A stretch of 29,697 nucleotides of DNA from a virus. A program made the translations under genes and the position numbers. The notes under the pieces were generated by a model. The model saw only the letters and a program-made list of their open reading frames with translations, searched no databases and was not told the DNA's origin. The DNA lies in IMG/VR virus record IMGVR_UViG_3300025646_000223, positions 1 through 29,697 of that record; one strand, written 5' to 3'. Positions 3,994 through 28,600 of the stretch are shown here, in pieces (within the stretch, counting starts at the first letter, position 1; the number at the start of each line of letters is the position of its first letter).

Positions 3994-4142
3994 TGATGAA
4001 TATCAATGTTTGTACGGTTGGCACTGTTGTAGTTAAGACCACCAATAACAAAGATTTACTTAAAGAAACAAGCACTCAAGAGGTTAGCGCCACAAAAGAC
4101 CTCGAGACTAAAGACTCAGAATCAACACCGAGGAAATTATAA
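3993..4142 (+). CDS. 49-aa hypothetical protein
   Basis: A short ORF opening with tandem ATGs (3993 and 3996) that shares one base with the upstream TAA stop, and whose own TAA (4140-4142) shares one base with the next ATG. This perfect fit into the stop/start chain is the main evidence that it is translated. The N-terminal 14 residues are hydrophobic (MMNINVCTVGTVVV); the rest is Lys/Thr/Glu/Ser-rich and probably disordered (KETSTQEVSATKDLETKD). No family is recognised. It also supplies the AGGA (4131-4134) ribosome-binding site for the next gene, so it may serve partly to couple translation. Confidence 0.55.
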   Translation: MMNINVCTVGTVVVKTTNNKDLLKETSTQEVSATKDLETKDSESTPRKL

Positions 4143-4576
4143 TGGCTATTACACAAGCAGTTTGCACATCGTTTAAAGTTGCTCTTCTTGATGGAGAGAT
4201 GGACTTTAGCAGCGATACAACCGATGTATTCAAGATTGCGCTATATACTTCTAGCGCAACTCTTGGTGCGGCAACTACGGCTTATACAGTAACAAATGAA
4301 GTAAGCGGGACTGGTTACTCAGCTGGCGGAAACACGCTAACAATATCAACAAATCCAACATCATCTGGCACGACAGCGTACTTGGACTTTGCTGATACCA
4401 CATGGTCATCATCAACGATCACTGCTCGTGGTGCTTTGATTTATAAAGCAGATGGCGGTACTAACCCAGCCGTTGCTGTGCTTGATTTTGGAGCAGATAA
4501 GTCTTCAACATCTGGCGACTTTACTATTGTCTTCCCAACTGCTGATGCAAGCAACGCTATCATTAGGATTGCGTAA
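4142..4576 (+). CDS. Beta-rich structural protein, tail/baseplate type
   Basis: 144 residues. It opens with a short helix-like AVCTSFKVALLDGEMDF, then KIALYTSSATLGAATTAY, and ends with IVFPTADASNAIIRIA; strands such as TARGALIYKADGG and AVAVLDFGADKS dominate. The pattern FKIALYTSSATL...GYSAGG is common in small proteins encoded just before tail fibres in marine phages, in my memory of such genomes. No enzyme motif is present. The start is supported by AGGA at 4131-4134. It shares a base with the first fibre gene (4576), so it probably belongs to the distal tail complex. Confidence 0.62.
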   Translation: MAITQAVCTSFKVALLDGEMDFSSDTTDVFKIALYTSSATLGAATTAYTVTNEVSGTGYSAGGNTLTISTNPTSSGTTAYLDFADTTWSSSTITARGALIYKADGGTNPAVAVLDFGADKSSTSGDFTIVFPTADASNAIIRIA

Positions 4577-5451
4577 TGGCTTTGGTTCTTGCTGATCGTG
4601 TAAAAGAAACCACCACCACGACTGGCACGGGCGATATATCTCTTGGTGGAGCAGAGACCAACTTTGTTGCGTTTGGCACCGCTTTGGCAGATTCAGATAC
4701 AACTTACTACGCTATTGTAGATGATGTTAACGCTGACTTTGAAATAGGTATAGGTACATACACCGCTGGTACAGACACGCTGTCTAGAGACACAATTTTA
4801 GACAGCACCAACGGCGGAGCTGCCGTTAACCTCGGTGCTGGAGTTAAAACTGTATTCATTACATACCCAGCTGACAAGGCGTTGCGTGTTGGTAGTGATA
4901 TCTCTGACCTAACCAATGACTCTGGCTTTATAACGTCTGCCACAACAATAGGCACAACAGCGCCTGTGTCTCCGTCTACTGGAGACTTATGGTGGAATAG
5001 CGAGAGTGGTCAGCTAAAAATTTACTACACTGATGTTGATGGATCGCAGTGGGTTGATGCGGCAGCTGGTGCGGCTCTTCAAAGCATATCTTTAAACGAG
5101 TTAAGTGATGTAAGTTTAACCTCTGTTTCCTCTGGAGACTCTCTCCACTACAACGGCTCAAACTGGGTTAACAAGCTAACAGACTTTCAGGTATCAACAA
5201 CAGCAACAAGCCTGACAGCAAGCTCTTGGGATTATGTCATTGTGACAGCAGCAACTCAGACAATCACACTGCCAGCTTCGCCAGCAAATGGAGACTCTAT
5301 TGGTGTTTCTGTTGGTGACTTTACGGATACTGTAGTTGGAAGAAATGGCAACACGATCTCTGGCCTCGCTGAAGATCTAACTATTGATGTTGCTAATATG
5401 GGTCTTGTGTTTGTTTATTCCAGCTCTACTACGGATTGGAGATTATCGTGA
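4576..5451 (+). CDS. Tail fibre stalk protein, cassette 1
   Basis: 291 residues in at least four modules. Residues about 1-105 form a fibre module I recognise from marine phages (LADRVKETTTTTGTGDISLG at the start, VFITYPADKAL at its end). A linker ISDLTNDSGFIT follows, then a module with STGDLWWNSESGQLKIYY and SQWVDAA. The next part (SLNELSDVSLTSVSSGDSL, HYNGSNWVN) and the C-terminal 80 residues (TQTITLPASPANGDSI, GDFTDTVVGRNGNTISGLAE) are clearly related to the whole of the shorter fibre gene at 6850. The protein has no catalytic motif and should be a trimeric stalk carrying the tip encoded next. Its TGA overlaps the GTG start of that tip gene. Confidence 0.75.
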   Translation: MALVLADRVKETTTTTGTGDISLGGAETNFVAFGTALADSDTTYYAIVDDVNADFEIGIGTYTAGTDTLSRDTILDSTNGGAAVNLGAGVKTVFITYPADKALRVGSDISDLTNDSGFITSATTIGTTAPVSPSTGDLWWNSESGQLKIYYTDVDGSQWVDAAAGAALQSISLNELSDVSLTSVSSGDSLHYNGSNWVNKLTDFQVSTTATSLTASSWDYVIVTAATQTITLPASPANGDSIGVSVGDFTDTVVGRNGNTISGLAEDLTIDVANMGLVFVYSSSTTDWRLS

Positions 5452-6554
5452 GTACATTAACAGGCTTAATTAGTGCGGGTGGCAGTTTAAATCCTACAAG
5501 CTCTGCAAGTGGAATATCTTTTGGAAAAGACGGTTTTATAGTGACCGCATCTCAAACTTTGACAATGCCTGCGGCAGCAACAATTACCGCCATATGTGTT
5601 GGTGGAGGCGGTGGAGGAGCAGCGGCAAGCCAATCAACCGCTTATTGCGCAACAGGCGGTGGAGCGGGTGGATACTGTCAAAAAACTTTTAATGTTTCTT
5701 TAAATGAAGATTTAACAATTGTCATCGGCTCCGGCGGAGCTGTAATAAGACAAACTGGCTCAGGGAAAGTAGACGGAAACAATGGCGGAAATACGACTCT
5801 TACTAATGGCGACAGCAGCGTAACATTGACGGCAAACGGAGGAAGTGGAGGTGTTGGGGCGCTTTCTGCGGGCGTTTTGTCTGGCGGAGCTGGTGGAACA
5901 GCAACTGGCGGAGACGCAAACTATACGGGCGGCGCTGGCGGATCAATTAGCAGCACAACATCTACTGGTGCGACCGGAGGTGGCGCAGTCAACTCACAAG
6001 GAACGAATGATTGCGATGGGGGTGATATATCGACCGGAGACAGCACAACTAACATAGCAACAGGAGGCGGAAGCCCATTTAATCGTGCTGGGGATGTTAC
6101 CACTAACCCTGTTACGGTAAGGAGCACCGGGGGGGGTGGTTTTTACGATACTGTAGACGACAGTTTGACAGGTTCTTTGGGAGTAAATATAGATTTAGAT
6201 GTTCCATTTGCAGACGTATTTAACTCAAAATTTGCAATTAGTTCTGTTGGCTCTGATTCTCTTGCGTTTGGATCGGGAGGAAATGCTGGAAACGGTGGGA
6301 GTGGTACAGCGGCAACCGCACTTGGTGGTGGAGGCGGTGTAAGATCAACCGCAGGAGGCGTTATTTATGGGGTTGGGGGCGGAATGTTTGGAGGCGGCGG
6401 GGGCATGACCTCAAGTAGCCAGCGAGGGATTGGCGGATCCGGTGGACTGGGCGCGGGAGGGGGAGCAGCAATAAATACTAATGCTTCTGATTTTTCAGAT
6501 TCAGGAGCTGGTGGATCGGGTGTTGTTTTTATATTTATTGAGGAGATATTATAA
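5448..6554 (+). CDS. Glycine-rich distal tail-fibre tip/adhesin
   Basis: I place the start at GTG 5448, which forms a GTGA overlap with the previous stop exactly as the related tip gene at 7371 forms ATGA; an ATG at 5436 would add four residues. 368 residues. After the N-terminal MSTLTGLISAGGS tag comes a stretch ending in TITAICVGGGGGG, followed by a very long Gly-rich region with runs such as GGGGGMTSSSQRGIGGSGGL, closing with SGVVFIFIEEIL. This is the architecture of polyglycine adhesins in which packed glycine helices present variable receptor-binding loops (as in T4-like gp38 adhesins). It probably determines host receptor specificity. Next genes: an assembly chaperone, immediately adjacent. 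Confidence 0.72.
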   Translation: MSTLTGLISAGGSLNPTSSASGISFGKDGFIVTASQTLTMPAAATITAICVGGGGGGAAASQSTAYCATGGGAGGYCQKTFNVSLNEDLTIVIGSGGAVIRQTGSGKVDGNNGGNTTLTNGDSSVTLTANGGSGGVGALSAGVLSGGAGGTATGGDANYTGGAGGSISSTTSTGATGGGAVNSQGTNDCDGGDISTGDSTTNIATGGGSPFNRAGDVTTNPVTVRSTGGGGFYDTVDDSLTGSLGVNIDLDVPFADVFNSKFAISSVGSDSLAFGSGGNAGNGGSGTAATALGGGGGVRSTAGGVIYGVGGGMFGGGGGMTSSSQRGIGGSGGLGAGGGAAINTNASDFSDSGAGGSGVVFIFIEEIL

Positions 6555-6848
6555 ATGTCTCAAACCTATTTGATAAAAAACAAAGCCGGAGATGTGATAA
6601 ATACCGTTATCGCAGATGAGGATTTTGTTAAAAATAATTTCGATTATTTTGAAAAACAAAAGCCTAGCAATTTTGAATTAGAGCAAGATGCCAGAAAATG
6701 GAGAGATGAAGAATTGGTATCGACTGATAACATTGCAATAATTCCAGATTGGCCGAACCGAGCTTCATATTTAATATACCGACAAACATTACGAGACTGG
6801 CCTGCTACACCAGATTTTCCAGACATTAGACCAACTTTAGGAGTCTAA
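6555..6848 (+). CDS. Tail fibre assembly chaperone, copy 1 (Phage_tail_APC-like)
   Basis: 97 residues, with a strong GAGGAG ribosome-binding site (from 6540). The N-terminal half is a beta-like domain (TYLIKNKAGDVINTVIADED). The C-terminal half has the motif ARKWRDEELVSTDNI, then SYLIYRQTLRDWPATPDFPD, typical of the phage tail assembly chaperone family (WR..EL..TDW ... YRQALRD.P). Such chaperones help fold or attach the fibre encoded next to them. A second copy lies at 8468; the last 18 residues of the two proteins are identical, while the N-terminal halves are unrelated in sequence. That fits an N-terminal half matched to a specific fibre and a common C-terminal half. Confidence 0.75.
   Translation: MSQTYLIKNKAGDVINTVIADEDFVKNNFDYFEKQKPSNFELEQDARKWRDEELVSTDNIAIIPDWPNRASYLIYRQTLRDWPATPDFPDIRPTLGV
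6793..6841 (+). repeat. 49-bp perfect direct repeat, left copy
   Basis: Identical to 8712-8760; counting one mismatch, the match extends to 55 bp (6787-6841 against 8706-8760). It covers the 3' end of the chaperone gene and the TTTAGG start of the ribosome-binding site (6836-6843) of the fibre gene at 6850. Both copies lie in the same codon phase of their genes. Confidence 0.95.
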
Positions 6849-6849
6849 T

Positions 6850-7374
6850 ATGGCGGCTTTAAATTTCCCAACATCTCCAACTATTGGCGATCAATATGCA
6901 GCTAACGGCAGAACATGGGAGTGGGACGGTGCGTCTTGGAATATAGTTCCGCCTGACGCTCTGTTAAGTACGCTTGGTGATGTATCTATCACATCAGTTT
7001 CTGCTAATGAGGTTTTTAGATACGATGGGTCTAACTGGGTTAATACAGATGCGATGACTATTGATAGCACCTATAGAATTACAGCATCATCTGGCGCTGC
7101 GTTTGTATATAACACCACAACGACATCAACATCAAAAACTTTAGTTAATGGCGAGCAGTGCTTTGTTGATACTGCAACTCAGACACTTACACTTCCTGCA
7201 AGCCCCATTGCTGGAGATAATGTAAGGGTTTTAGTTGGAAACTTTACAGACACAGTTGTCGCAAGAAATGGTTCTAATATCATGGGGCTTGCTGAAGACT
7301 TAACTATTGATGTTGCATACTTAGGAATAACATTGGTTTACGCTGACGCTACAAATGGATGGACAATGATATGA
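6850..7374 (+). CDS. Tail fibre stalk protein, cassette 2 (short)
   Basis: 174 residues; ribosome-binding site TAGGAG at 6838-6843. It opens with a module I know from many phage fibres (LNFPTSPTIGDQYAANGRTW, then EWDGASWNIVPP), followed by LSTLGDVSITSVSANEVFR, DGSNWVN and a C-terminal domain with TQTLTLPASPIAGDNV, GNFTDTVVARNGSNIMGLAE and DLTIDVAYLG. The last roughly 75 residues align without large gaps to the C-terminus of the fibre at 4576, so the two genes share a common origin; this one lacks the first module of that protein. Its TGA overlaps the next ATG. Inferred role: alternative or additional stalk that carries the second tip protein. Confidence 0.72.
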   Translation: MAALNFPTSPTIGDQYAANGRTWEWDGASWNIVPPDALLSTLGDVSITSVSANEVFRYDGSNWVNTDAMTIDSTYRITASSGAAFVYNTTTTSTSKTLVNGEQCFVDTATQTLTLPASPIAGDNVRVLVGNFTDTVVARNGSNIMGLAEDLTIDVAYLGITLVYADATNGWTMI

Positions 7375-7880
7375 GCACAGTAACTGGGTTTTTAAGTAGC
7401 GGTGGCGGAGCGACTCCCCCCACTACATTGTTTTCCAAAATAAATAGACTTGATGGAAGTAGAGACCCTTCGTTGCTTGCGGCGTATTTTGGATTACAAA
7501 CAAGTTCAGTAACAACGACTGGTACTTATCAAAACATAGTAAGCGTTACGGGTTCTGGCACTATTACTTTCTTGCTCGCTGGAGTAGATGGCACCCCGTC
7601 AAACGATTTAGACTTTAAAGTTATTGTTGACGGTACAACCGTGTTGACACAAGAAGGCAACACTACATCACAAGATGAATGTTATGCTGTAGTTGGATCT
7701 GCACACTGGCAACTTGTTACAAACGCTAGTTCAGGTCAGGACCGCTATGATTCGAGAGAACCAGCAGCCATTTCACTTGGCGCTGTGCCATTTACAACAG
7801 GTTTCAGTGTTCAAGTTAAAAGCGCAGGTGCTTCCGCGTTAGCGGCCGAACTTGCATATGATTATTATTTAACATCGTAA
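7371..7880 (+). CDS. Distal tail-fibre tip, cassette 2 (beta-sandwich type)
   Basis: I choose ATG 7371, which gives an ATGA overlap with the preceding stop; the ATG at 7359 in frame adds four residues. 169 residues. The first dozen residues (MSTVTGFLSSGGG) match the start of the Gly-rich tip at 5448 (MSTLTGLISAGGS), but the rest is different: a single beta-sandwich-like domain with QNIVSVTGSGTITFLLAGVD, DFKVIVDGTTVLTQEG and FSVQVKSAGASALAAELAYD. It looks like a receptor-binding head built on the same docking tag. It ends 16 bases before the oxygenase gene. No database relative is claimed. Confidence 0.66.
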   Translation: MSTVTGFLSSGGGATPPTTLFSKINRLDGSRDPSLLAAYFGLQTSSVTTTGTYQNIVSVTGSGTITFLLAGVDGTPSNDLDFKVIVDGTTVLTQEGNTTSQDECYAVVGSAHWQLVTNASSGQDRYDSREPAAISLGAVPFTTGFSVQVKSAGASALAAELAYDYYLTS

Positions 7881-7896
7881 TTAATATTATATTATT

Positions 7897-8445
7897 GTGA
7901 ATAGTAATTATAGTATTGAAACAATTATTACAGAACAAGATAGAAAGGAATTAAAAAAATTATTCGATAATTTATCATTTATGAATTTGCAGCAAGGATG
8001 TCACCTATTCAATATAGAACGGCGAGATGTTAAGGACGAAAAAAACGTTTACACAGAAAAAATTCGTAAATACGGTGAAAGTAAAGGATACCAATTACAA
8101 CAAAATTATTTTTTAAAATATAGGGAGAATTCTTTTACCAGAGTCCACGCTGACGATTGCCATAGCGACAGCGTAAAATTGACAATAGTTACTGTGGTAG
8201 AGACGCAAGATTTGATTGGTGGCGAGTGTTTAGTTTTCGATGAGTACCAAAAAACTTTAGATAATCGTGGCGATTACATAATGTTAAGCGGTGATGATAA
8301 TGGTGTACCTTATGGTAAAAACATTATTCCCGTTTTTGTTAAACTGAATTGCGGACAATCAGTAGTGTATGATGGTGGGGTCGAACATGGTGTTACTAGG
8401 GTCGAACAAGGACATCGAGTAGTTTTGGTGAGCTGGTTTAATTAA
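7897..8445 (+). CDS. 2-oxoglutarate/Fe(II)-dependent oxygenase
   Basis: 182 residues from GTG 7897; there is no earlier start because an in-frame TAA lies at 7882, and the next in-frame Met is residue 29. The C-terminal half carries the full signature of the double-stranded beta-helix oxygenases: HAD (H84-x-D86) after a FLKYRENSFTRV strand, a GGECLVFDEY strand, VYDGGVEHGVT with the distal His H164, and GHRVVLVSWF with R174 as likely 2-oxoglutarate ligand. These enzymes hydroxylate proteins, nucleobases or small molecules; the substrate here is unknown. The gene sits between a tip gene and its chaperone, has no visible Shine-Dalgarno, and is about 35% G+C (183 of 525 bases counted, 7921-8445) against 42-45% in sampled neighbours. 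That suggests recent acquisition. Confidence 0.85.
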   Translation: MNSNYSIETIITEQDRKELKKLFDNLSFMNLQQGCHLFNIERRDVKDEKNVYTEKIRKYGESKGYQLQQNYFLKYRENSFTRVHADDCHSDSVKLTIVTVVETQDLIGGECLVFDEYQKTLDNRGDYIMLSGDDNGVPYGKNIIPVFVKLNCGQSVVYDGGVEHGVTRVEQGHRVVLVSWFN

Positions 8446-8467
8446 TAAAATTGTAAAGAGCAAATTT

Positions 8468-8767
8468 ATGGAAATATTAAATCTAACAAGGTCAGGAGAG
8501 CAGCCACAGACGGGGGACAAGATCCGAAAGGTCTTTGCTAATGGCTCATATGAAGAATCATTTTACGTTGACCTTTCAAAAAAAACCATCGGTGTGGTTG
8601 AACTTAACGGCAGAGAATGGCGAGACGCAGAGCTTAAACAAACGGACTGGATTGTTTCTGTAACAGATCATCCACAACACGCTGCGTATCTTGCGTATCG
8701 TCAAGCATTAAGAGACTGGCCTGCTACACCAGATTTTCCAGACATTAGACCAACTTTAGGCGTGTAA
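8468..8767 (+). CDS. Tail fibre assembly chaperone, copy 2 (Phage_tail_APC-like)
   Basis: 99 residues, with a weak AAAGAG ribosome-binding site (8455-8460). The N-terminal half (NLTRSGEQPQTGDKIRKVFA, then SYEESFYVDLSK) differs from copy 1. The C-terminal half (GREWRDAELKQTDWIVSVTD, AAYLAYRQALRDWPAT) is the better match to the tail assembly chaperone pattern, with the TDW kept that copy 1 has as TDN. The last 18 residues are identical to copy 1 and are encoded by the 49-bp repeat. It closes the second receptor cassette and probably serves the fibre/tip at 6850-7880; whether the oxygenase contacts the same complex is unknown. Confidence 0.78.
   Translation: MEILNLTRSGEQPQTGDKIRKVFANGSYEESFYVDLSKKTIGVVELNGREWRDAELKQTDWIVSVTDHPQHAAYLAYRQALRDWPATPDFPDIRPTLGV
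8712..8760 (+). repeat. 49-bp perfect direct repeat, right copy
   Basis: Identical to 6793-6841, 1919 bases downstream. It covers the last codons of chaperone copy 2, and its end (TTTAGG, 8755-8760) acts as the only ribosome-binding site candidate for the gene at 8769. Confidence 0.95.
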
Positions 8768-8768
8768 A

Positions 8769-9458
8769 ATGTTTTCATCTGGCGCATTTAGTACAGCACC
8801 GTTTGCGTCAGAGTCTGCAATAAATGTAGATGTATCTGTAACAGGTTTATCATCAACATCTTTTATTGGTGATGAATCCATCATCATAGATGTTTCTTTT
8901 CAGGTATCTGGCAACACAATAACGTCCACGGTTGGCGATGTAGCTGTAATAAACCCTGTTGCAGTAACCGGGGTTAGCGCATCAGCATCTGTTGGGGATG
9001 TTGTTGTCTCAGGCGCTGCAACAGTAGATGTTACCGGAAGCTCAATAACGGTAACACTTGGTGACGAAACCATTGTTATTAATGTTGGCGTTGATGTAAC
9101 TGGTGATGCTGCAACAGCAATTGCCGGATCTGTTGATATCAATACAGAGGCAAATGTCGATGTTACCGGGCAAGAAGTTTCGGTAGATCTAGGCACGGCA
9201 ACTGTATCTATAAGCATACAGGCAAATGTTACAGGTCAGTCTGTAACTGCGAGCTTAGGATCGGTAGCTGTCGAGGGTGATGCAAACGTAAGCCTTTCTG
9301 GTGTAGAGCTAAACATATTTACAAACAATGTTCTAATTTGGAGCAGGGTTATTGATGATCAAACTCCAGACTGGCAGCTTGTAAGTGATTCTCAAACTCC
9401 GGCATGGATTTTAGTTAGTGACTCCCAGACTCCAAACTGGAATAATGTAATAGATTAA
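8769..9458 (+). CDS. Repeat-built fibre protein (VTG repeats, QTPxW tail)
   Basis: 229 residues. After a short SSGAFSTAPFASESA leader, residues about 17-180 are about eight degenerate repeats of roughly 22 residues with a V-x-V-[TS]-G-x5-6-G-[DST]-x-x-V core (for example ANVDVTGQEVSVDLGTATVS). This is a regular beta-helix or beta-solenoid pattern. The C-terminus is three tandem copies of D-[DS]-QTP-x-W-x2-V (DDQTPDWQLV, DSQTPAWILV, DSQTPNWNNV), a motif I have seen at the ends of marine phage fibre-like proteins. It probably forms an extended stalk or connector between fibre assemblies. Dispensable-length repeats suggest copy-number variation between relatives. Confidence 0.7.
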   Translation: MFSSGAFSTAPFASESAINVDVSVTGLSSTSFIGDESIIIDVSFQVSGNTITSTVGDVAVINPVAVTGVSASASVGDVVVSGAATVDVTGSSITVTLGDETIVINVGVDVTGDAATAIAGSVDINTEANVDVTGQEVSVDLGTATVSISIQANVTGQSVTASLGSVAVEGDANVSLSGVELNIFTNNVLIWSRVIDDQTPDWQLVSDSQTPAWILVSDSQTPNWNNVID

Positions 9459-9470
9459 AGAGGTTATTAA

Positions 9471-10703
9471 ATGGCAACTCAATATACAAGCATACTAAAG
9501 CTGGCGTTACCAACGACTGGCGAGCTTGATGGCACATGGGGTGACGTTGTTAACAACAACATTACTTCTATGGTCGAAGAGGCTATTGCCGGGCTTTCGA
9601 CAATTAATACTTGGTCTACCAACTCTCATACCCTTACTACAGCAAACGGAACTACATCTGAGTCACGAGCGGCAATGTTGATACTGACAGATTCTGGCGG
9701 CGCTCTGACTGGATCTGGTGAAGTTATTTGCCCAGACCAAACCAAAATCTATCTTGTGTATAACAATACCGGGGAACAGATTACGGTAAAAACTTCAGCC
9801 GGGACGGGAGTTGATATTCCAGACGGCATTACACTTTTTGTATATTGCGATGGCACTAATGTAGAGAAGGCAAATACAGATACCTCTGTACTGCTTTCAA
9901 ACTATTCAGTGGGGTCTAATAACGCGGCTGTTGGCTTATCGGCATTGGCTTCATTAACATCAGGCTCAAACAACTCAGCATTTGGATCTAGCTCGTTAAC
10001 TGCATTAACATCTGGAGCCAGCTCGGCAGCGTTTGGAAAAGATTCAATGGTTTCAGCAACAACCGGAAATTTTAACGTGGCGTTTGGGGCAACTTCTGGG
10101 GAGTCAATAACAACAGGATCAAACAACACAGCTATTGGTGATGATGCTTTATCAAATGTTTCCACTTCTGGATATAATACCGCTCTTGGCATTGCTGCTG
10201 GCGGAAGCATAACTTCTGGTGCAAACAATACAGCAATAGGTGGAGACGCAATGTCGTTTTTTGGTTCACCTATTACTGGGTCTAATCTGACATGCCTTGG
10301 ATATCAAGCTAACCCTTCAGCAGCGAGTGCAACAAACGAAATAACTTTTGGAAACTCAAGTATATCAACTCTTCGATCTAACACCACAACCATATCAAGC
10401 CTGTCTGATCGGCGCGATAAAAAGGATATTGTTGATAGCCCATATGGTCTTAATGTTATAGAGAAAGTAAAACCTCGTCAGTTTGTTTGGGAAAGTCGTA
10501 GAGGTAACATAAAAGATGGAACCGTTGAGATTGGCTTTGTTGCTCAAGAATTGCAGGAAGTTGGGGATAATGAGATTCTCAGATTAGTGATGGATGAAAA
10601 CCCAGAGTTTTTAGAAGCAAAACCCGGTAGTTTAATTCCGATTTTAGTGAAGGCAGTCCAAGAGCTTTCCGAAAAGGTTAAAGATCTGGAGAGCAAGTTA
10701 TGA
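9471..10703 (+). CDS. Tail fibre/spike with YadA-like repeats and S74 autoproteolytic chaperone
   Basis: 410 residues; ribosome-binding site AAAGAGG at 9457-9463. Residues about 1-140 form a fibre N-terminal module frequent in marine phages (LKLALPTTGELDGTWGDVVN; NTWSTNSHTLTTANGTTSES). Residues about 149-285 contain eight repeats of about 15-20 residues with the N-x-A-[VIF]-G-x3-[AL] pattern of trimeric YadA-type adhesin heads (GSNNTAIGDDAL, GANNTAIGGDAM). From Ser312-Asp313 the C-terminus is an intramolecular chaperone of the Peptidase_S74 family (SDRRDKKDIVDSPYGLNVIE, FVAQELQE, SLIPILVKAVQEL) ending in a coiled coil. In this family the chaperone trimerises the fibre and then cuts itself off just before the Ser; that is expected near residue 312. 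Its TGA overlaps the next ATG. Confidence 0.82.
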   Translation: MATQYTSILKLALPTTGELDGTWGDVVNNNITSMVEEAIAGLSTINTWSTNSHTLTTANGTTSESRAAMLILTDSGGALTGSGEVICPDQTKIYLVYNNTGEQITVKTSAGTGVDIPDGITLFVYCDGTNVEKANTDTSVLLSNYSVGSNNAAVGLSALASLTSGSNNSAFGSSSLTALTSGASSAAFGKDSMVSATTGNFNVAFGATSGESITTGSNNTAIGDDALSNVSTSGYNTALGIAAGGSITSGANNTAIGGDAMSFFGSPITGSNLTCLGYQANPSAASATNEITFGNSSISTLRSNTTTISSLSDRRDKKDIVDSPYGLNVIEKVKPRQFVWESRRGNIKDGTVEIGFVAQELQEVGDNEILRLVMDENPEFLEAKPGSLIPILVKAVQELSEKVKDLESKL

Positions 10704-11134: not shown

Positions 11135-11386
11135 ATGGAGCAGTCCTTTATCAATATGCTCGCAGGGGCAGTCTCAGTCTTGTTTGGTTGGATACTTAAG
11201 ACTGTGTGGGACGCTGTTAAAGACCTTCAACAAGCTGATGATGAGTTAATTGATAAGGTGAACAAGATCGAAGTTTTGGTTGCTGGAGAGTACGTCAAGC
11301 GCGAAGACTTCAGGGCTGATATGGATCGGCTTTTTGATAAGCTGGACAAGATAGACAAGAAGCTAGATTTAAAGGCCGACAAGTGA
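11135..11386 (+). CDS. Membrane-anchored coiled-coil protein of the lysis cluster
   Basis: 83 residues: an N-terminal hydrophobic segment (FINMLAGAVSVLFGWILK, about residues 5-22) followed by a long charged heptad region (VKDLQQADDELIDKVNKIEV, MDRLFDKLDKIDKKLDLK). One membrane anchor plus coiled coil resembles inner-membrane spanin subunits or haemolysin XhlA-like lysis accessories, but no lipobox partner is seen nearby. The stop overlaps the GTG of the next gene. Function in lysis is inferred from position alone. Confidence 0.6.
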   Translation: MEQSFINMLAGAVSVLFGWILKTVWDAVKDLQQADDELIDKVNKIEVLVAGEYVKREDFRADMDRLFDKLDKIDKKLDLKADK

Positions 11387-11814
11387 TTGCAGAGCTTGCC
11401 GCGTTTAATGCCGCTTACTCGGTAGTTAAAGAGTTTGTAGCCAACGGCAAGGATTTGACCGACTGTTTTAGTTTTATTGGTCAGATGACTACAGCGAAAG
11501 AAGACCTGAAGCTACGGCAAGCAAAGAAGAATGGCTTTACCAGTGACGCTGAAGAGTTTGCGGCACTTGAGCAGATTAAACAGGCTGAAGACGAACTAAG
11601 AGAATTGATGCAGTATTACGGTAGAGCAGGTTTATGGGATGACTTTGTTAAGTTCCAAGCAGAGGCTCGCAAGGCTAGGCTTTTAGAGCGTAACGAGAGG
11701 ATCAAAAAGATCAATAAACGCTGGCAGTATGTAAGTATTATCGTTGCTGGCTGTCTTGGACTCATAGGCTCTTACGCTATTTTCGTGATAGCCAGTGCGG
11801 TTTTAGGGATCTGA
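11383..11814 (+). CDS. Coiled-coil protein with C-terminal membrane segment
   Basis: 143 residues; the start is GTG 11383, which overlaps the previous TGA by GTGA. The N-terminal 110 residues are helical and charged (FAALEQIKQAEDELRELMQY, AEARKARLLERNERIKKINK); a hydrophobic segment occupies about 114-140 (YVSIIVAGCLGLIGSYAIF). I recognise the pattern AEL..FNAAYSVVKE, EEFAALEQIKQAEDEL, YGRAGLWDDFVKFQAEARK from marine phage proteins encoded beside lysis genes; function unknown. It may pair with the coiled-coil protein at 11135, whose membrane anchor is at the other end. Confidence 0.62.
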   Translation: MIAELAAFNAAYSVVKEFVANGKDLTDCFSFIGQMTTAKEDLKLRQAKKNGFTSDAEEFAALEQIKQAEDELRELMQYYGRAGLWDDFVKFQAEARKARLLERNERIKKINKRWQYVSIIVAGCLGLIGSYAIFVIASAVLGI

Positions 11815-18397: not shown

Positions 18398-18909
18398 GTC
18401 AACCAGCAAGAAAGGAAAACGTAACCCGTATTAGAGACATCTCTAAAGAGCCAAGGGTTAAGCCTAAATCTGCAAAGCGCGAGGCTACACACACTATCGC
18501 TTTGGTACCGCCAAACTTTATTAACTCACTGTGGCCAGATGTTCGAGAAGAACTTATGCGAGCAGTAGATCGGTCACACGGGCGGTGGACGATAGAGGCA
18601 TTGTTTTCCTGTATTGCTAATGGTCAGCAGCATTTATGGGTGGCGTTCGATGCCGACAAGAATATTGATGGCGTAGGAACAACAGAGATCGTTACATACC
18701 CCGGCAAGAGAATGCTTGTCATCCAGTTTTTGGGCGGCAAAAATTTTAATGACTGGGTCTGGGATATGCTTGAAAAGTTTAACGACTGGGGAAGAGATAA
18801 CCATTGTCACGGCATAGAGGCCACAGCAAGAATGGGTTTCTGGGAATGGTTAAAGCAAGATGACTTCCAAAGATCGTATGTCGTTTATGAAAAGAGGATT
18901 GAGAAATGA
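18394..18909 (+). CDS. GNAT-like internal virion protein (T7 gp13-like)
   Basis: 171 residues, ATGA overlap on both sides. After a basic N-terminus, residues about 36-160 follow the acetyltransferase-like pattern seen in short-tailed phage internal proteins: HTIALVPPNFINSLWPDVRE, HGRWTIEALFSCIANGQQHL, then VAFDADKNIDGVGTTEIVTY strands and MLVIQFLGGKNFNDWVWDML, GIEATARMGFWEWLKQ. T7 gp13 and its relatives have this fold and are needed for virion maturation. The acetyl-CoA-binding R/Q-x-x-G-x-G/A loop is not clearly kept, so enzymatic activity is doubtful. Location between two large ejection-type genes fits. Confidence 0.68.
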   Translation: MSQPARKENVTRIRDISKEPRVKPKSAKREATHTIALVPPNFINSLWPDVREELMRAVDRSHGRWTIEALFSCIANGQQHLWVAFDADKNIDGVGTTEIVTYPGKRMLVIQFLGGKNFNDWVWDMLEKFNDWGRDNHCHGIEATARMGFWEWLKQDDFQRSYVVYEKRIEK

Positions 18910-20948
18910 GTAAAGGCGGCGGCGGCAGCAGCGGAACACAGCAGGTAGAACAGACAACCAGTAACCTACCAGAATACGCTCGCCCGTATTTTGAAGAGCT
19001 GCTAGGAAGAACAGCATACGAGTCTACCAGACCCTATGAGGCATACCCCGGCCAGCGTATAGCTGACTTTACTCCGTATGAACAGATGGGTATGCGGGGT
19101 ATGTATGACATGGCTGCTCAGGGCGCACCAGCACAGCTCGGTATGGCATCAGATATTGCTGCACAAATGGGATATCAGCCATCTAATATGGGTCTGCAAA
19201 TCGCAGGTGGATTTCAACCTCAACAGGTACAGTCATACTATGCGCCGGGTCAATTTCAAACTGGGTTTCAAGCTGGGCAAATATCTCCCCAGTATCAAGC
19301 AGGTCAGTATTACTCTCAGCTAGGCGAACGTCAGTTTGATCCCGGCTATCAGGCAGGCGTTAGAGATTCACAGTTTCAGATGGGCGATTACGCCTCTGGA
19401 TATCAAGCTGGTCAGTTTGATCCCGGTTATACAGCTGGGGATATTAATCAGGGTTACACCGCTCGTGAGTTACAAAGCGGTTACCAAGCTGGTCAGTTTG
19501 ATCCCGGCTATGTTGCCAGAGAGCTAGGCCAAGATTACACGGCTCGTGATCTAGAAAGTCAGTATCAAGCTGGAAGTATAGCTGCTGACCCAGAGACGTT
19601 GCAGCAGTACATGAACCCATATCAACAGCTTGTAACCGACATACAAAAAAGGGAAGCGCAAAAGCAGTCTGATATTATGGGTAGTCAGATTGAGCAGCAA
19701 GCATCTCAGGCAGGCGGTCTTGGTGGATACCGAGAGGCTATCATGCAGGCAGAGCGCCAGCGTAACCTTGGCGAACAGCTGCAAGACATACAGGCAACTG
19801 GAGATCAGGCTGCGTATCAGCAGGCGCTTCAGGCATTCGAGCAGGATCGTGCGGCAAGGGGTCAGCAAGAACAGTTCCGTCAGCAAGCGTTTGGTACAAC
19901 AGAAGAAGCAAGGCAGGCCCAGCAGCGCATGGCTATCGACTCATTCCAAGCTGGAGAGAATGCTCGACAACAAGCTGCAAACTTAGGAATGACTGCACAA
20001 CAGCAAGAAGATGCAGCAAGGCAAGCGCAAGAACAATTCTCTCAATCTGCCTTTTCTCAGACGGAAGCGGGAAGACAGCAGCAACAACAGTTTGAAATAC
20101 AAACTTATCAAGCCGGAGAGCAAGCAAGACAGCAAGCCGCCGCGATGGGTCTTGACGCACAGGGCCAAGAAGATGCAGCAAGGCAAGCGCAAGAGCAATT
20201 TCAGCAGCAGGCTTTTGGTCAAACATTGGATGCAAGAACAACTAAAGAGCAGCTTAATCAGGCTGCATTTAATGAGGGCGAAAGAGCTAGACAGGAAGCA
20301 GCAAGACTTGGATTGTCTGCTCAAGAGCAGGAGCAGAGAGCCGCTGAAGCGGCAGAACAGTTTAGACAGTCTGCCTTTCAGTCAAATGAAGCCGCTCGAC
20401 AACAACAAGCGCAGATACAAAACCAAGCATTCCAGATCCAAGAGCAAGCCAGACAGGAGGCTATGCGCTTGGGGCTTGATGAGCGACAGGCTGAAGAGCT
20501 TGCCCGTCAGAGAGCCAATGAGTTTATGATGCAGGCGCAACAGTTTAATGTTGGCAGCGCACAGGATCAGGCTCGGTTAATGCTTGAAGGCTACGGCATG
20601 GATCAGGCGACAAGAGCACAGCAGCTTGATGCGGCTAGACTGCTTGGTCAACTTGGCGGTCAAGAACAGCAAATGGCTATTGACCGCTTATTAAACTTGC
20701 AGGCTGCTGGTCAGATACAGCGAGATATGAGTCAGCGCGGCATGGATATGGGCTACGAGGATTTCTTGCGTCAGCAAGCATTCCCAAGAGAGCAGCTTGG
20801 ATTTTTCAGCCAGATGCTTCGCGGTCTGCCAATACAGCCCGGGCAAACAACAACATCATTCGGAGCATCACCTAGCGCATATCAACAAGCACTTGGCGCT
20901 GGCATAGGTGGAGTAGGGTTATATAGAGCACTAGGGCAGGGTGGCTAA
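18906..20948 (+). CDS. Gln-rich internal virion protein with tandem repeats
   Basis: 680 residues. A short Gly/Ser leader and a conserved N-terminus (TSNLPEYARPYFEELLGRTA, PYEAYPGQRIADFTPYE) are known to me from marine phage structural proteins. Residues about 98-225 are a Tyr/Gln-rich region with repeated words QAGQFDPGY and YTARELQ. Residues 322-537 are four uninterrupted copies of a 54-residue Gln/Ala/Glu/Arg-rich helical unit (E-[QN]-F-x2-[QS]-[AQ]-F... RQxxARxLG). The C-terminus returns to QQAFPREQLGFFSQMLRGLP and a Gly-rich end. Length and coiled-coil build suit a proteinaceous DNA-delivery tube or an ejected, trans-periplasmic protein. No lytic transglycosylase motif is seen. Confidence 0.7.
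   Translation: MSKGGGGSSGTQQVEQTTSNLPEYARPYFEELLGRTAYESTRPYEAYPGQRIADFTPYEQMGMRGMYDMAAQGAPAQLGMASDIAAQMGYQPSNMGLQIAGGFQPQQVQSYYAPGQFQTGFQAGQISPQYQAGQYYSQLGERQFDPGYQAGVRDSQFQMGDYASGYQAGQFDPGYTAGDINQGYTARELQSGYQAGQFDPGYVARELGQDYTARDLESQYQAGSIAADPETLQQYMNPYQQLVTDIQKREAQKQSDIMGSQIEQQASQAGGLGGYREAIMQAERQRNLGEQLQDIQATGDQAAYQQALQAFEQDRAARGQQEQFRQQAFGTTEEARQAQQRMAIDSFQAGENARQQAANLGMTAQQQEDAARQAQEQFSQSAFSQTEAGRQQQQQFEIQTYQAGEQARQQAAAMGLDAQGQEDAARQAQEQFQQQAFGQTLDARTTKEQLNQAAFNEGERARQEAARLGLSAQEQEQRAAEAAEQFRQSAFQSNEAARQQQAQIQNQAFQIQEQARQEAMRLGLDERQAEELARQRANEFMMQAQQFNVGSAQDQARLMLEGYGMDQATRAQQLDAARLLGQLGGQEQQMAIDRLLNLQAAGQIQRDMSQRGMDMGYEDFLRQQAFPREQLGFFSQMLRGLPIQPGQTTTSFGASPSAYQQALGAGIGGVGLYRALGQGG
19250..19580 (+). 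repeat. Tyr/Gln-rich coding repeat region (QAGQFDPGY words)
   Basis: Within the 18906 gene, words such as YQAGQFDPGY recur. A 23-base stretch is identical at 19404-19426 and 19485-19507, exactly 81 bases (27 codons) apart. A third, degenerate copy of the QFDPGYQAG word starts near 19329. Confidence 0.75.
19869..20516 (+). repeat. Four tandem 162-bp coding repeats (54 residues each)
   Basis: Units begin at 19869, 20031, 20193 and 20355 with no spacer and no length variation. Each starts EQF at the protein level and ends in A-rich helix. Units 1 and 2 are the most similar to each other; units 3 and 4 have drifted. The pattern is recent-to-old duplication of a helical hairpin. Confidence 0.9.
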
Positions 20949-22673: not shown

Positions 22674-25600
22674 ATGAAGTCATTGTCAGATGTACGGGCT
22701 ATGTACCCAGAATATGAACGCGTTCCTGACAAAGAGCTTGCCGATGCAATTTACAATAAATTCTATTCTGATCGCCTAGATCTAGATGATTACTATTCTA
22801 GGATAGGGTTTACCTCTGAGCCAACACAAGAAGTTGCACCACCACCAGAAGAAAAACCATTTGGTGTTGCTGAGTATGCACAGGCACCTCTTGAGAGTGT
22901 CAAGGCGATCACTCGCTCGCTTGGTGGTTCTCTTCTATCTTCTGCCGCTGGTCTTGCTGAATTGGCAGACATTGCCACAGATAGAATAGGTCTAGAAGAT
23001 CTCATCGACAGTGGTGAAGAGAACGAGTTAATACGTCTTGCCAACGCTGGACAAGAAGCGCTTCAAGAAAATCTGGGCGCATCAGATGCTTACAAGGATT
23101 TGTGGTTTACCAAATTTAATGAGGGCGTTGGCTCGATAGGCGCGTTCTTTTTGCCTACCGGACTTATTGGTGCGGCTGGAAGGGCAGCAGGCTTGGCCGC
23201 AAAAACAACAACAGGCTTGCAGACAGCTGGTGCTATTACAGCTGGTGGCGGCATGATGGTAGATGATTCGGTTAATAGGGTTGCCGATGCAAGACTTAGG
23301 GGTATTGAAGTAACAAAAGACCAAGAGGATGCAGCTGCTGCTCTTAGTTTTTTGGTTGGTGGACTAGAGGCATTTACACCATTACAAGTTCTTAAAAAAA
23401 TCAGAGGCCTAAAAGACCCAGAGCTGGCGAAGCAACAGTTTGACACAATAAGAAGCGCTATAAAAACTGGTACTGGAGAAGGAATTCAAGAGGTTACCAG
23501 TGGACTCTTAATGGACGCTATCCAGTATGGCATATACGATGAGAATGTTCCGTTTGGCGAAAGCATGTGGGATGACTTCACTATCGGTGCCGCCTCTGGT
23601 GCCCTTGTTGATGCCATCACCACTGGAATGTTTAACCGAAGATCTAGGCTATCTAGAGAGATAGAGCTTGATCGAGAAAAACTCATCCGTGAAGAGGAAG
23701 AGCGCCAGAGAGAAGACTACTACAATAAGGTAGCTTTAACAGAAGACTTTTTAAAAGAAAGAGACATACAAAGTCAGCTTGCTGCAATAGCGGCACAAGA
23801 AGACGCAGAGCTTGCGGCAGCAGATGCTCTTAACTATCAAGTTGAGCAGAGCGAACAGGAAGCATTGCTTGGCCTGATAGCACCATATCAGCCTTCTCAA
23901 GAAGCTCTTCGCCAGCCTAAGGGTGATATAGAAGGCAGGGATATAGAGTCCACCGTCACCAAGCAAGGCCGAGAGTACGCTCGGCAGATTGCAAGAAACG
24001 CTTCCAAGAGGGCAGGACTATTCCCATCGACCGGACGCTTTGAAATACGAGAAGAGCAAGGCGGACCATCTGGTACAAACTATGTTGTTTATAATACGGC
24101 AGATGGCAGGCAGTATGGTCAAGCAACAAAAGACCTAGAGTTTGCCAAGCATTTTAGTCTCGGTCTAAACAACGAGATGATCAACAAGAGCGTGAACGAA
24201 AGCATCATTGATGCAATGGACATGTCTCCAGAGGCTTACGATCCAAAGACAGCCGAGTCAATCTTCATGATTGGCCAGCGTCTAAACAGACCTAAGAGTT
24301 ACACCATCTCTGAGGCAACCCTTAATGAAGCGGCTGGCACTGTCGCGTCAAAAGATAAACCCTTCCTAGAAAACCTTACCCTAGATCAAATCCACCAGAT
24401 ACAGTATGGCGTTCCTCCGTTTCAGGACGGCAAGAAGAAACTGTATAAAGATCTCAGCAACCTTACCGCGTCTCAGCAGATAAACTTTGAGAGAGCCAAG
24501 AAGGGTCTTCCTCCCCTAAAAGAATTCACGCTGCAAGAAGCTAAGGATGCGCTTGGAAACAAGTACGATAAAGTCTTTGATGTGCTTCTTGATGTTCAGC
24601 AACCAGATTTAGCTGCAATACGGCAAGAGTTTGGTGAGGCAGGCGTTAACGTCCAAGGCGGTCGTCAGCGTTACCAAGATGAGATCAACACTCTGAAAGA
24701 GGTGAAGGACACCCTTGCCAGCAAGAACATTGTGTCTGACATCGGATCTAAAGAATTATCTTACGTCTTCAAGAAGATCACAGGCGAGTCAAGTGTTAGC
24801 AAGATGACTCCGTCACAGCGGATGTTCTTGGTTGGTGAGCTTAAGAAGTTGCCAGCACTGGACAAGCCATCCAAGTTACCAGATCTATCACCCAAGCCTT
24901 ACACTCGAGCAGACTTCAACAATGCCATGAACTATGTTATCTCAACTGGTGATGGCACCGTTGATAACATCAAGGCTGTTCTTCCAGAAGATCTAAGTGA
25001 GAAAAGAAAATCTGTGGCAGCAGGGCAGATTAGGGCAGAGCTTCTATCTCGTGGCGTTATCAATAAAGATAACACCGTATCAGAGTTGACGGCGCTTCCT
25101 GCACCAGAGCCTCGCAAGCCAACAGAAGTTACCGAGAAAGACTTTACAACAGAGCAGTCTGTTGAGGCGTTAGATTTCCAAAAGAAACTGTCTGAGGCAC
25201 TTAAAGGTTTCGGTCTTGATGATATACGGGTAAGCATACTTGATCAGATGAAAACCAAGCCTGAAGTTACCCGAGATGGTAGGCTTGTTGATATTGGTAG
25301 CACCAGAGATTTTAGCGCAGCCGAGGGTCTTTTTGATCCGAGATCAAGAACAATATTCTTGGGCCTCGATTCTGCCAGAACAAACGCTAGAGACCAAAGC
25401 CCAGAAGCTTTTGACTTCGCGCTGTCCGAGGTTATGGATCACGAGATGGTTCATGCCATGCGCAATCTAGACTTGTGGACGCAAAAGGAATGGTCTCTGC
25501 TAGAGAACTCTGCAAGGAAGTTTAAAGTCCCCGGCACTAACAAGACATTTTATCAGGATGCTATAGAGCGATATGTTACCCAGCAGCCAGCAGGGAGCAA

Positions 25601-28600
25601 ATTAAGTCCGGTTCAGGCTATGGAAGAAGCTGTTGCAGAGCTGGTCAGGTACTCTAAGAAGGACAGAAAGCTGGTTGGCGGCAAGCCTAGAAATCTTATC
25701 GACAGAGTCTTTGAATTCTTTAGGCGGCTTGGTAGTGCAATGCAGGGCACTGGCTTCAACAGCATGAACGACTTGATCAACGACATCGAGTCAGGCGCTC
25801 TTGGTGCTCGTGAGCGTGGCGTTGTTAGAACCGCTAGAGGTATGGAGGCTGCAAGACGGGCTGTGCCAGAGAGAGGCATAGGTTTGGCAAGAGATGTTAA
25901 ATCTGAGTTCACTAGCAGAACGGAAGTAACCGGCAGGGATGGTTCAAGAGCAACAACTACAGTGACAAGAAACATTCCTGTTGCCGGAGAGGATGAACAG
26001 CCTGTAGAGGGTGGTGTTCAGATGTCTATAAACAGGATTATCGGTCGCAATGGAACCGAACTTAATCAAGCGCCAGATGGTAAAACCGCGCATGGACTAC
26101 CATCAGAGCTTCTTGTTGATGGGCCAAAACAAGAAGCAAAAAGCATCGTTGTCCAAAACTTTACGCCCCAAAACACAGATCAAGTTTTATCCAATATTCA
26201 GACCGTAAAATCAAACAATCCAGACGCACTAGGATCTACTGAGAACTGGATAGCAATGGAGGACGATGCCTTCGGTGGGGATTTTGTTCCAATCCCTCCA
26301 TTAAAAGCAATTCAATACGCTCAGTCACCAGAGCTTTTAGCTGAAAAACTTAAACAACTGACCCCTGATCTTAAAGCTGGTGTTGATGAGGGCTTTAAGT
26401 ATGTTCAGCAAATCAAAAACCTATACAACACGCAACCAACATCGCCTGATCTAACTGGCCGATTGTTCATGTGGGGTCTTCTTTCTAGAGGAGCTGGCCC
26501 TGTTCAGCAAGAGTTTGCATTCCTTAACTTACTTGAATCTGCAACGCCATATATCAAGAAAGCATCAGAAGGAAAAATGACGCAAGCAGATGTTATAAAG
26601 TGGAAAAGGTTGGTTGGGAAGTCTATTCCTTCCAGCTCTCCAGCAAAGTCTGCGACCATGAACGCCAATGATATTGGTAAGTTGTTATTTGAACTTGGCA
26701 AGGTTCCAGATGGGTCTAGTCAAACTGTTATGCAGACCTTGCATAATATGCTGGCAGATCCAAATGTTAGTGGAAGAGAATTCCGTAACGAATTTTTTAG
26801 ACTAACAAACAAGCCCGGAGTAGATAACAAGGTGGTTTCGTTTATCGCTCTTGTCGCTGGCAAGGATGACGTTCTGGTTATGGATCGCATTCAAGGAAGA
26901 CATCTTTGGAACGATGGAAGATTTGGCGATAAAAATATTTATAACGGACTTAAGAAAGGGAAAGTAAAAAGCGGTCTTAATGCAATCTTTGCTGGACCGA
27001 GAGGTCTGCTTGTTACTGAATCACTAGAAGACGGCCTTTCTACCGTGGTACAACAGGCATATGATATGATTGGCCGACCCCAAGATGCAAGCGTTGGCCG
27101 GATGCACTGGGAGACTTGGGTAATTGATGGCAATCAGGCTGTATCACACAGCACCCTTGAGGCTGTTAGGACAGGAAGCGGGATAGGCGGCTCGGTAACT
27201 GAAGGCAAGCGAGGAACTTTTTCGTCCGGCACAACATATAGACAAACTGCCAATGGGCCAATTACTGAGTATCCGCTTTCCGATGGAACTGTTGCGCGGA
27301 TGACATTGGATCAACAGAAAGAATTTGAAGCGTTTATAAAAAACCCAAAGAATGGTATTGTCCCCAAAGGGTTCTTAGTTGGAAGGTCAAAAGATCGCCC
27401 GTGGTTTGAATTGCCAGAAGTAAATAGGGAGAAATTAGATGAAACAGCAAGACGATTTGAAAACGCAAACCCAGACGGAAGTATTAGATCAGGCAATGCT
27501 CGGTCTATTCAGGCTGGGGCTTCCGATGCAGGCAGACGAAGAGCCGCAGCAGGACCAGTCGGATCAGTCGCGCCAGCAACAGACGAAATAAGTTTATCGC
27601 TTAAGCGCTTGGATGGAATGCCTGAATCGTTTGATGTCAACGGTCAGGCAGTAGAGTTTGGTTACTTTGAGCCTGCTGTAACTGCGGCTAAAAAATATAC
27701 AGAAAGAAGCGGAAGGGTCTACGAGCCGCTAACAGAGTACGCTCCTATCAATGAAGATGTAGCAAGAAAAATTGCTGCGGAATTTGAAATAATGGAGCAT
27801 AGGCCTGATGACCCAGAGGTTATGGCGGCCTACGATGCCATGATCGAAGAAACAAAAGATCAGTACCGAGATATACTTAATAGTGGTCTTAAGGTTCAAT
27901 TTATAAAGGGTGAAGACCCATACGGTAATCCAAGGAACGTAATCCTAGATGTGGTGAACAATAATCACATGTGGGTATTTTCAACTGTAGACGGCTTTGG
28001 ATCTGATGCCGATCTGGATGTATCAGACAATCCGTTACTGCAAGCAACAGAGTTTGAAACAGCAGATGGAGATCCGATGCTGGCAAACGATGTGTTCAGG
28101 GTAGTGCATGATTACTTTGGGCACATTAAAAACGGAGTTGGTTTCCGTGCAAGGGGTGAAGAGAATGCGTGGCAGGCACATGCTGCTATGTACAGCCCCT
28201 TGGCAAGAAGAGCGATGACCACAGAGACAAGAGGTCAGAACTCATATGTAAACTTTGGACCAAACAGAGATTTTAATTTAACAGCAAATGGTGCTGACAC
28301 GGTTTACGCAGACCAGAAGGTTGGACTGCTACCATTGTGGGTATCAGAGGAGGCAAGACTAAGTGACCCTAGAAGAAGAGATGGGAGAATTTTTCAGGAA
28401 GGGCTTCAGGGAGCAATCCGAGATGATGGAAAGGTATCCCTTACACACTACAGCCGAGGGAAAATCAACCGAACAAATCCATCGCTGGCTGGAAGGGGAC
28501 TGGACAGGAGTAGAAGGTACTCACCAAAAGGCACCTACTTCGGGATCACAGAGGCTGTTGATGACAGGTATCGGAAGGAGGCGGGTCTCGGACCAGTAGA

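Follow-up and report, generated by a model that had tools for sequence, protein, structure and literature searches.

Two chaperone genes of different classes, 46% identical overall, end in the same 49 bp in the genome of an uncultivated virus of bacteria, raising the question of what made their ends alike. The window analyzed here is the whole IMG/VR record (29,697 bp), marked linear and probably a fragment, and all sequences compared are contigs known from sequence alone. According to the original prediction, the repeats flank a complete receptor cassette, and recombination between them would delete it as a simple host-range switch.

The genes concerned, all on the + strand, lie in an island between a phrog_644 protein gene (4142..4576), its left anchor, and a conserved gene (8769..9458), its right anchor, which occupies the same place in the related contigs L008, L155, L156, L158, L177 and L193. 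From left to right the island holds stalk 1, a tail-fibre-like gene (4576..5451; phrog_9729 tail fiber, E 9e-16), the glycine-rich tip 1 (5448..6554; PF21722 Gly_rich_2, E 2e-11), chaperone 1 (6555..6848; Phage_tail_APC, PF16778, E 5e-8), the short stalk 2 (6850..7374; phrog_31104, E 1e-12; phrog_892 tail fiber, E 2e-5), tip 2, which is not glycine-rich (7371..7880), a 2OG-Fe(II) oxygenase-like gene with a GTG start (7897..8445; phrog_61, E 2e-7; PF13640, E 2e-5, just below the curated cut-off) and chaperone 2 (8468..8767; Phage_tail_APC, PF16778, E 5e-11). The PF16778 bit scores of chaperones 1 and 2 (33.0 and 42.8) are both above the curated cut-off of 26.6. Among cultured phage records, only weak matches were obtained for chaperone 1, to phage tail assembly proteins (Pseudomonas phages included), and none at E 1e-5 for chaperone 2. 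Tip 2 is 11% glycine and by profile matches the tips found upstream of class B chaperones (probability 88%), a remote match and its only one; a pattern scan of IMG/VR found no relatives of it beyond L001. Its low-confidence structure model is a beta-sandwich, and a search with that model returned no significant match, the best ones including the TNF-like BC2L-C lectin domain. Just 3′ of the cassettes, a third fibre-like gene (9471-10703) carries a C-terminal Peptidase_S74 (endosialidase chaperone) domain, so that a fibre with a built-in chaperone stands beside two with separate chaperones. Elsewhere in the window, the nearest cultured-phage relatives of the protein at 11383-11814 are mostly Roseobacter phages (~41-51% identity in the better matches), which hints at what hosts this group infects; the gene at 18906-20948 encodes a 680-residue protein with internal 81-bp and 162-bp direct repeats, and a single ORF of >2341 residues (22674-29696) runs off the record end.

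An exact-match search of the window confirmed the perfect direct repeats: copy 1 (6793..6841, +) and copy 2 (8712..8760, +) form a maximal exact match of 49 nt with an offset of 1919, a length that no other exact repeat in the record approaches. The sequence, GAGACTGG...TTTAGG, has the same reading phase in both copies (GAC TGG CCT ... TTA GG) and supplies the codons for RDWPATPDFPDIRPTLG at the 3′ ends of the chaperone 1 and chaperone 2 genes. It was also expected to cover the ribosome-binding site of the following gene, but only the first part of that site falls inside: the repeat ends in TTTAGG, 5′ of the stop codon, and the Shine-Dalgarno-like stretch continues beyond its TTAGG with AG in copy 1 and CG in copy 2. 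In chaperone 3′ ends (for example, window 6837-6841), TTA is the usual codon for the final Leu preceding Gly despite being rare here; TTAGG probably also forms part of the ribosome-binding site of the following gene.

The two copies agree even at synonymous sites, which rules out peptide selection alone as the cause of the repeat; at the codon usage of this genome, the 16 repeat residues, if encoded twice independently, would receive identical codons with p ~2e-7. Both copies also carry ATT (Ile) at a position where L008 and L063 have Thr codons and where Thr is usual in the other listed copies, and this common ATT points to exchange within the window lineage. A 33-bp core, GAGACTGGCCTGCTACACCAGATTTTCCAGACA, is letter-identical in both window copies, L008 and L063-L065, and the adjoining sequence is mostly unlike. 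Since the core is common to two other genome types with mostly unlike flanks, inter-phage exchange appears to be involved, not solely intragenomic exchange, although the low divergence of the tract in the window, L008 and L063 could partly reflect shared ancestry with unusual constraint. The exact repeat peptide was absent from the cellular genomes searched. With class-different chaperones that nevertheless match at synonymous sites and at ATT, the prediction of exchange or gene conversion is supported over shared ancestry alone, and we read the repeat as a homogenised cassette border of the window genome.

The chaperones divide into halves with different histories. Those of the window and its relatives were sorted by N-half with two profiles, and tips were sorted by glycine content. 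Chaperone 1 has a class A N-half (6555-6698), the class paired with glycine-rich tips, followed by its C-half (6699-6848); chaperone 2 has a class B N-half (8468-8617), paired with non-glycine tips, and a C-half at 8618-8767. N-half class followed the type of the upstream tip in 52 of 53 classified copies (35 A/glycine-rich, 1 A/other, 0 B/glycine-rich and 17 B/other; Fisher 5.6e-13), a count in which the profile seeds are included and to which 12 copies matching neither class do not contribute. The lone exception, L158, is a scoring artefact: the ORF scored was the oxygenase between its glycine-rich tip and its chaperone. Window chaperone 2 was likewise scored on the oxygenase; its class stands because the real tip 2 is 11% glycine and its profile match is to the other non-glycine tips. 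By contrast, DHPQ, the C-half type seen most often, occurred with both tip types (24 and 22 copies). Placing tip type on the trees requires 14 changes for C-halves (shuffled mean 18), in a tree of 49 columns with many forks lacking resolution, vs 2 for N-halves. Three cellular-genome loci fetched later (L203-L205) obey the pairing rule by inspection (n=3). These comparisons suggest that the two halves evolve separately, the N-half tracking tip type and the C-half being common across types.

Breakpoints between related genomes fall where this division would place them. L026 and L027 share 92% identity up to a point inside stalk 1; their tips then differ (glycine-rich vs non-glycine), with N-halves to match, and 98.4% identity over 1650 bp begins inside the chaperone C-end. 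L022 and L027 pass from roughly half-to-two-thirds identity to near-identity at the LRDW codons, which is also where the window repeat starts. In both pairs, tips and N-halves differ and ~90-98% identity holds from the C-half onward, bearing out the expectation of cassette exchange at the repeat site. Among pairs with a right flank common at ≥80% identity, breaks in the C-half were found in 5/5 class-different pairs vs 4/27 same-class pairs (Fisher 6e-4, a p-value that, like others from these pairs, is too small because the pairs are related and not independent). Six more C-half breaks involve a copy of neither assigned class. Similarity between window chaperone 2 and L008, which differ in N class, sets in at 8614, adjacent to the N/C boundary. 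As a pattern in the sequences, the swap of tip plus chaperone N-half via a common C-half is well supported.

We consider it likely that the repeat is the common right-hand border of two adhesin cassettes, in which tip and N-half are swapped through the shared C-half. Each cassette would comprise a stalk end, a receptor-binding tip and the N-half of a dedicated folding chaperone, and would be closed by the C-half. The N-half would belong to the tip and travel with it, and the common C-half would provide the homology for recombination between phages, by which cassettes would be exchanged, gained or lost. The window would then hold two cassettes of unlike type in tandem, their last 49 bp homogenised by recent recombination, either gene conversion or import of a cassette through the border; in cis, the same homology would permit loss of cassette 2 with the chaperone 1 protein intact. 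By analogy, the N-half may grip its own tip and the C-half trimerise; the tips presumably bind receptors, and cassette swaps may change host range.

The analogy is with cyanophage Pam3, in which the tip of the tail fibre gp24 has TNF-like and glycine-rich parts; the non-conserved N-domain of the chaperone gp25 binds these tip domains and its conserved C-domain trimerises (PMC9608196). The same source states the modular organization of the chaperone, related to Tfa of phage Mu (PMC9608196). As in the window, the Pam3 chaperone adjoins its tip and joins a variable beta N-terminal domain to a more conserved helical C-terminal domain (PMC9608196). An AlphaFold2 model of chaperone 2 (pLDDT 89) has its strands within residues 2-32 and its helices within 41-86, the beta N-half and helical C-half layout of Pam3 gp25 and Tfa-like fibre chaperones. 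A chaperone of this kind would also be absent from the virion. Foldseek returned no match to this model at E 0.001, so the comparison with Pam3 gp25 is one of layout; gp25 was not matched by sequence either, a PDB-sequence profile search giving only 2kz6 and two weak matches. The window chaperones are also shorter (97-99 vs 162 residues), and, unlike Pam3, the genomes compared here have cassettes in tandem and natural breakpoints of recombination within the C-half.

The original prediction can be taken further: the 49-bp copies might recombine regularly and delete cassette 2, giving a population of one- and two-cassette forms with differing host range. We regard this as unlikely. The copies are direct, in phase and 1919 bp apart, and a crossover would remove exactly the predicted 1919 bp (6842-8760); lost with them would be stalk 2 and tip 2, the oxygenase-like gene, and the portion that distinguishes chaperone 2. 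Their 49 bp exceed the 23-27 bp needed by RecA/RecBC in E. coli and fall within the 44-90 bp range for RecA/RecF (quoted in PMC12074656), making deletion in cis possible by repeat length, though unobserved. The hybrid chaperone that was foreseen would not arise; both genes finish with GV-stop, and recombination would therefore yield a gene for an unchanged chaperone 1 protein. No contig carried the deletion junction in a degenerate scan of 2.9 million IMG/VR contigs. A scan of IMG/VR with the repeat peptide gave five contigs: L001 carries both copies, and the remaining four hold one cassette each and belong to other genotypes. The window's deletion product is not among the five. L001, which retains both copies, has 6 differences from the window in 18.4 kb and zero in the cassettes; with only six bases differing, it is not independent evidence of stability. 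Deletion is moreover one-way, and would be no switch unless cassettes were regained from other phages.

Single-cassette relatives do exist. Bounded by the phrog_644 gene and the gene at 8769, the island differs in content among close relatives: tip-chaperone in L008, tip-chaperone-oxygenase in L156, tip-oxygenase-chaperone in L158 and L177, tip-chaperone-tip-chaperone-oxygenase in L193 (L155 in part), and tip-chaperone 1-stalk 2-tip 2-oxygenase-chaperone 2 in the window and L001. One cassette (L008, L156, L158, L177) is thus the commoner state in this small set of syntenic islands, and window/L001 and L193/L155 have two. The relatives with one cassette have diverged from the window, with flanks ~75-90% identical and other tips, and are not isogenic deletion products. 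The equivalent locus in relatives therefore offers the one-cassette arrangement and C-half tip swaps but not the product of deletion from the window, and with no junction contig in IMG/VR, a simple host-range switch in cis was not demonstrated. 2OG-Fe(II) oxygenase-like genes recur in the island at varying positions (window 7897-8445, L193:4647-5213, L158:6462-7034); BLAST detected no relation of the window gene to those of L193 and L158, so it seems that more than one kind of oxygenase was recruited to this place.

It is improbable that the tract is instead a functional DNA or RNA element, such as a promoter, terminator, recombinase site or processing site, kept by selection. This would account for a 33-bp core that stays the same in four contexts although the flanks differ, and for the unusual constancy of the rare TTA codon, itself probably part of the ribosome-binding site. 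Across 39 distinct chaperone C-ends from related phages, however, the same-codon rate was 0.41 in the motif vs 0.43 in the preceding 35 codons, showing no general rule that preserves the motif bases and ruling out general nucleotide constraint on the repeat; equal conservation in distant relatives, which would have spoken against exchange, is in general not what these copies display. No promoter or terminator match lies inside the tract, its RNA structure is not beyond chance (z -1.2), and the shared runs of other genomes are located elsewhere.

Those runs bear on how often cassettes recombine. Tandem tip-chaperone cassettes are common in related contigs, and in most multi-cassette relatives the longest run shared between cassettes is 8-21 bp. 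Longer runs (46 bp in L058, 29 in L036, 28 in L155/L193) lie elsewhere in or beside the chaperone gene; their presence in few relatives, at differing places, suggests that recombination is episodic. The L058 run is an exact repeat between two chaperones (L058:3083-3128 and 4529-4574), in a part of the gene unlike that of the window repeat. In the tandem cassette of L193 (L193:2829-3182 and 4303-4638), the second has a tip and chaperone without a stalk.

That one cassette was recently duplicated in tandem and the copies then diverged is very improbable for the window. The two cassettes are equal in layout and the 3′ end of stalk 2 is 71% like that of stalk 1, and L193, whose two tips and two chaperones are ~70% alike, could be such a duplicate; the window tips, by contrast, belong to different families, the chaperones differ in both N- and C-half types, each with closer kin in other phages, and agreement is confined to the last 49 bp. 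Whole-cassette duplication was rejected for the window on class pairing, the tip 2 profile match and the half trees. Least probable of all is an assembly artefact joining cassettes of two phages via the repeat: 49 bp can mislead short-read assembly, but the second record, L001, has the identical arrangement with zero differences in the cassette region, and many contigs have cassettes in tandem, as do two cellular-genome records, L203 (from assembly AG-333-E20) and L205.

Exchange through a common C-half resembles known adhesin systems and departs from each. In the Alteromonas phage A5/V22 modules, fibre and cognate chaperone likewise travel together between marine phages, but the whole module is common to distant families (PMC10579305); here the unit would run from the stalk end through the tip to the N-half of the chaperone, whose gene would contain the border. 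Repeats near adhesin sequences are shared with T4 and Xanthomonas phages OP1, Xp10 and Xop411, in which duplication or loss of tail-fibre domains is linked to host range (PMC2248197 and references therein); those duplications lie within one fibre gene, whereas here whole gene cassettes are bordered by chaperone ends. The Mu/P1 G-segment adhesin switch uses inverted crossover sites, in contrast to the direct repeats here; no inverted repeat bounding the cassettes was found in the window, and no invertase or recombinase gene among its Pfam-scanned proteins (a subset of the ORFs of a fragmentary record). We found no report of a chaperone C-half as an exchange border in the open-licence literature, a weak negative.

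Phage adhesin exchange is known, its borders usually vague; here the sequence by itself suggests a border within a chaperone gene. The pairing of N-half type with tip type offers a means of annotating the adhesin tips of uncultivated phages. More tentatively, and with rather less confidence than doubt, split chaperones may be a plug-in standard, with tip and N-half as the swappable part and the C-half as both socket and recombination border, present once per cassette. If so, phages could stack, swap and shed adhesins with chaperone function kept.
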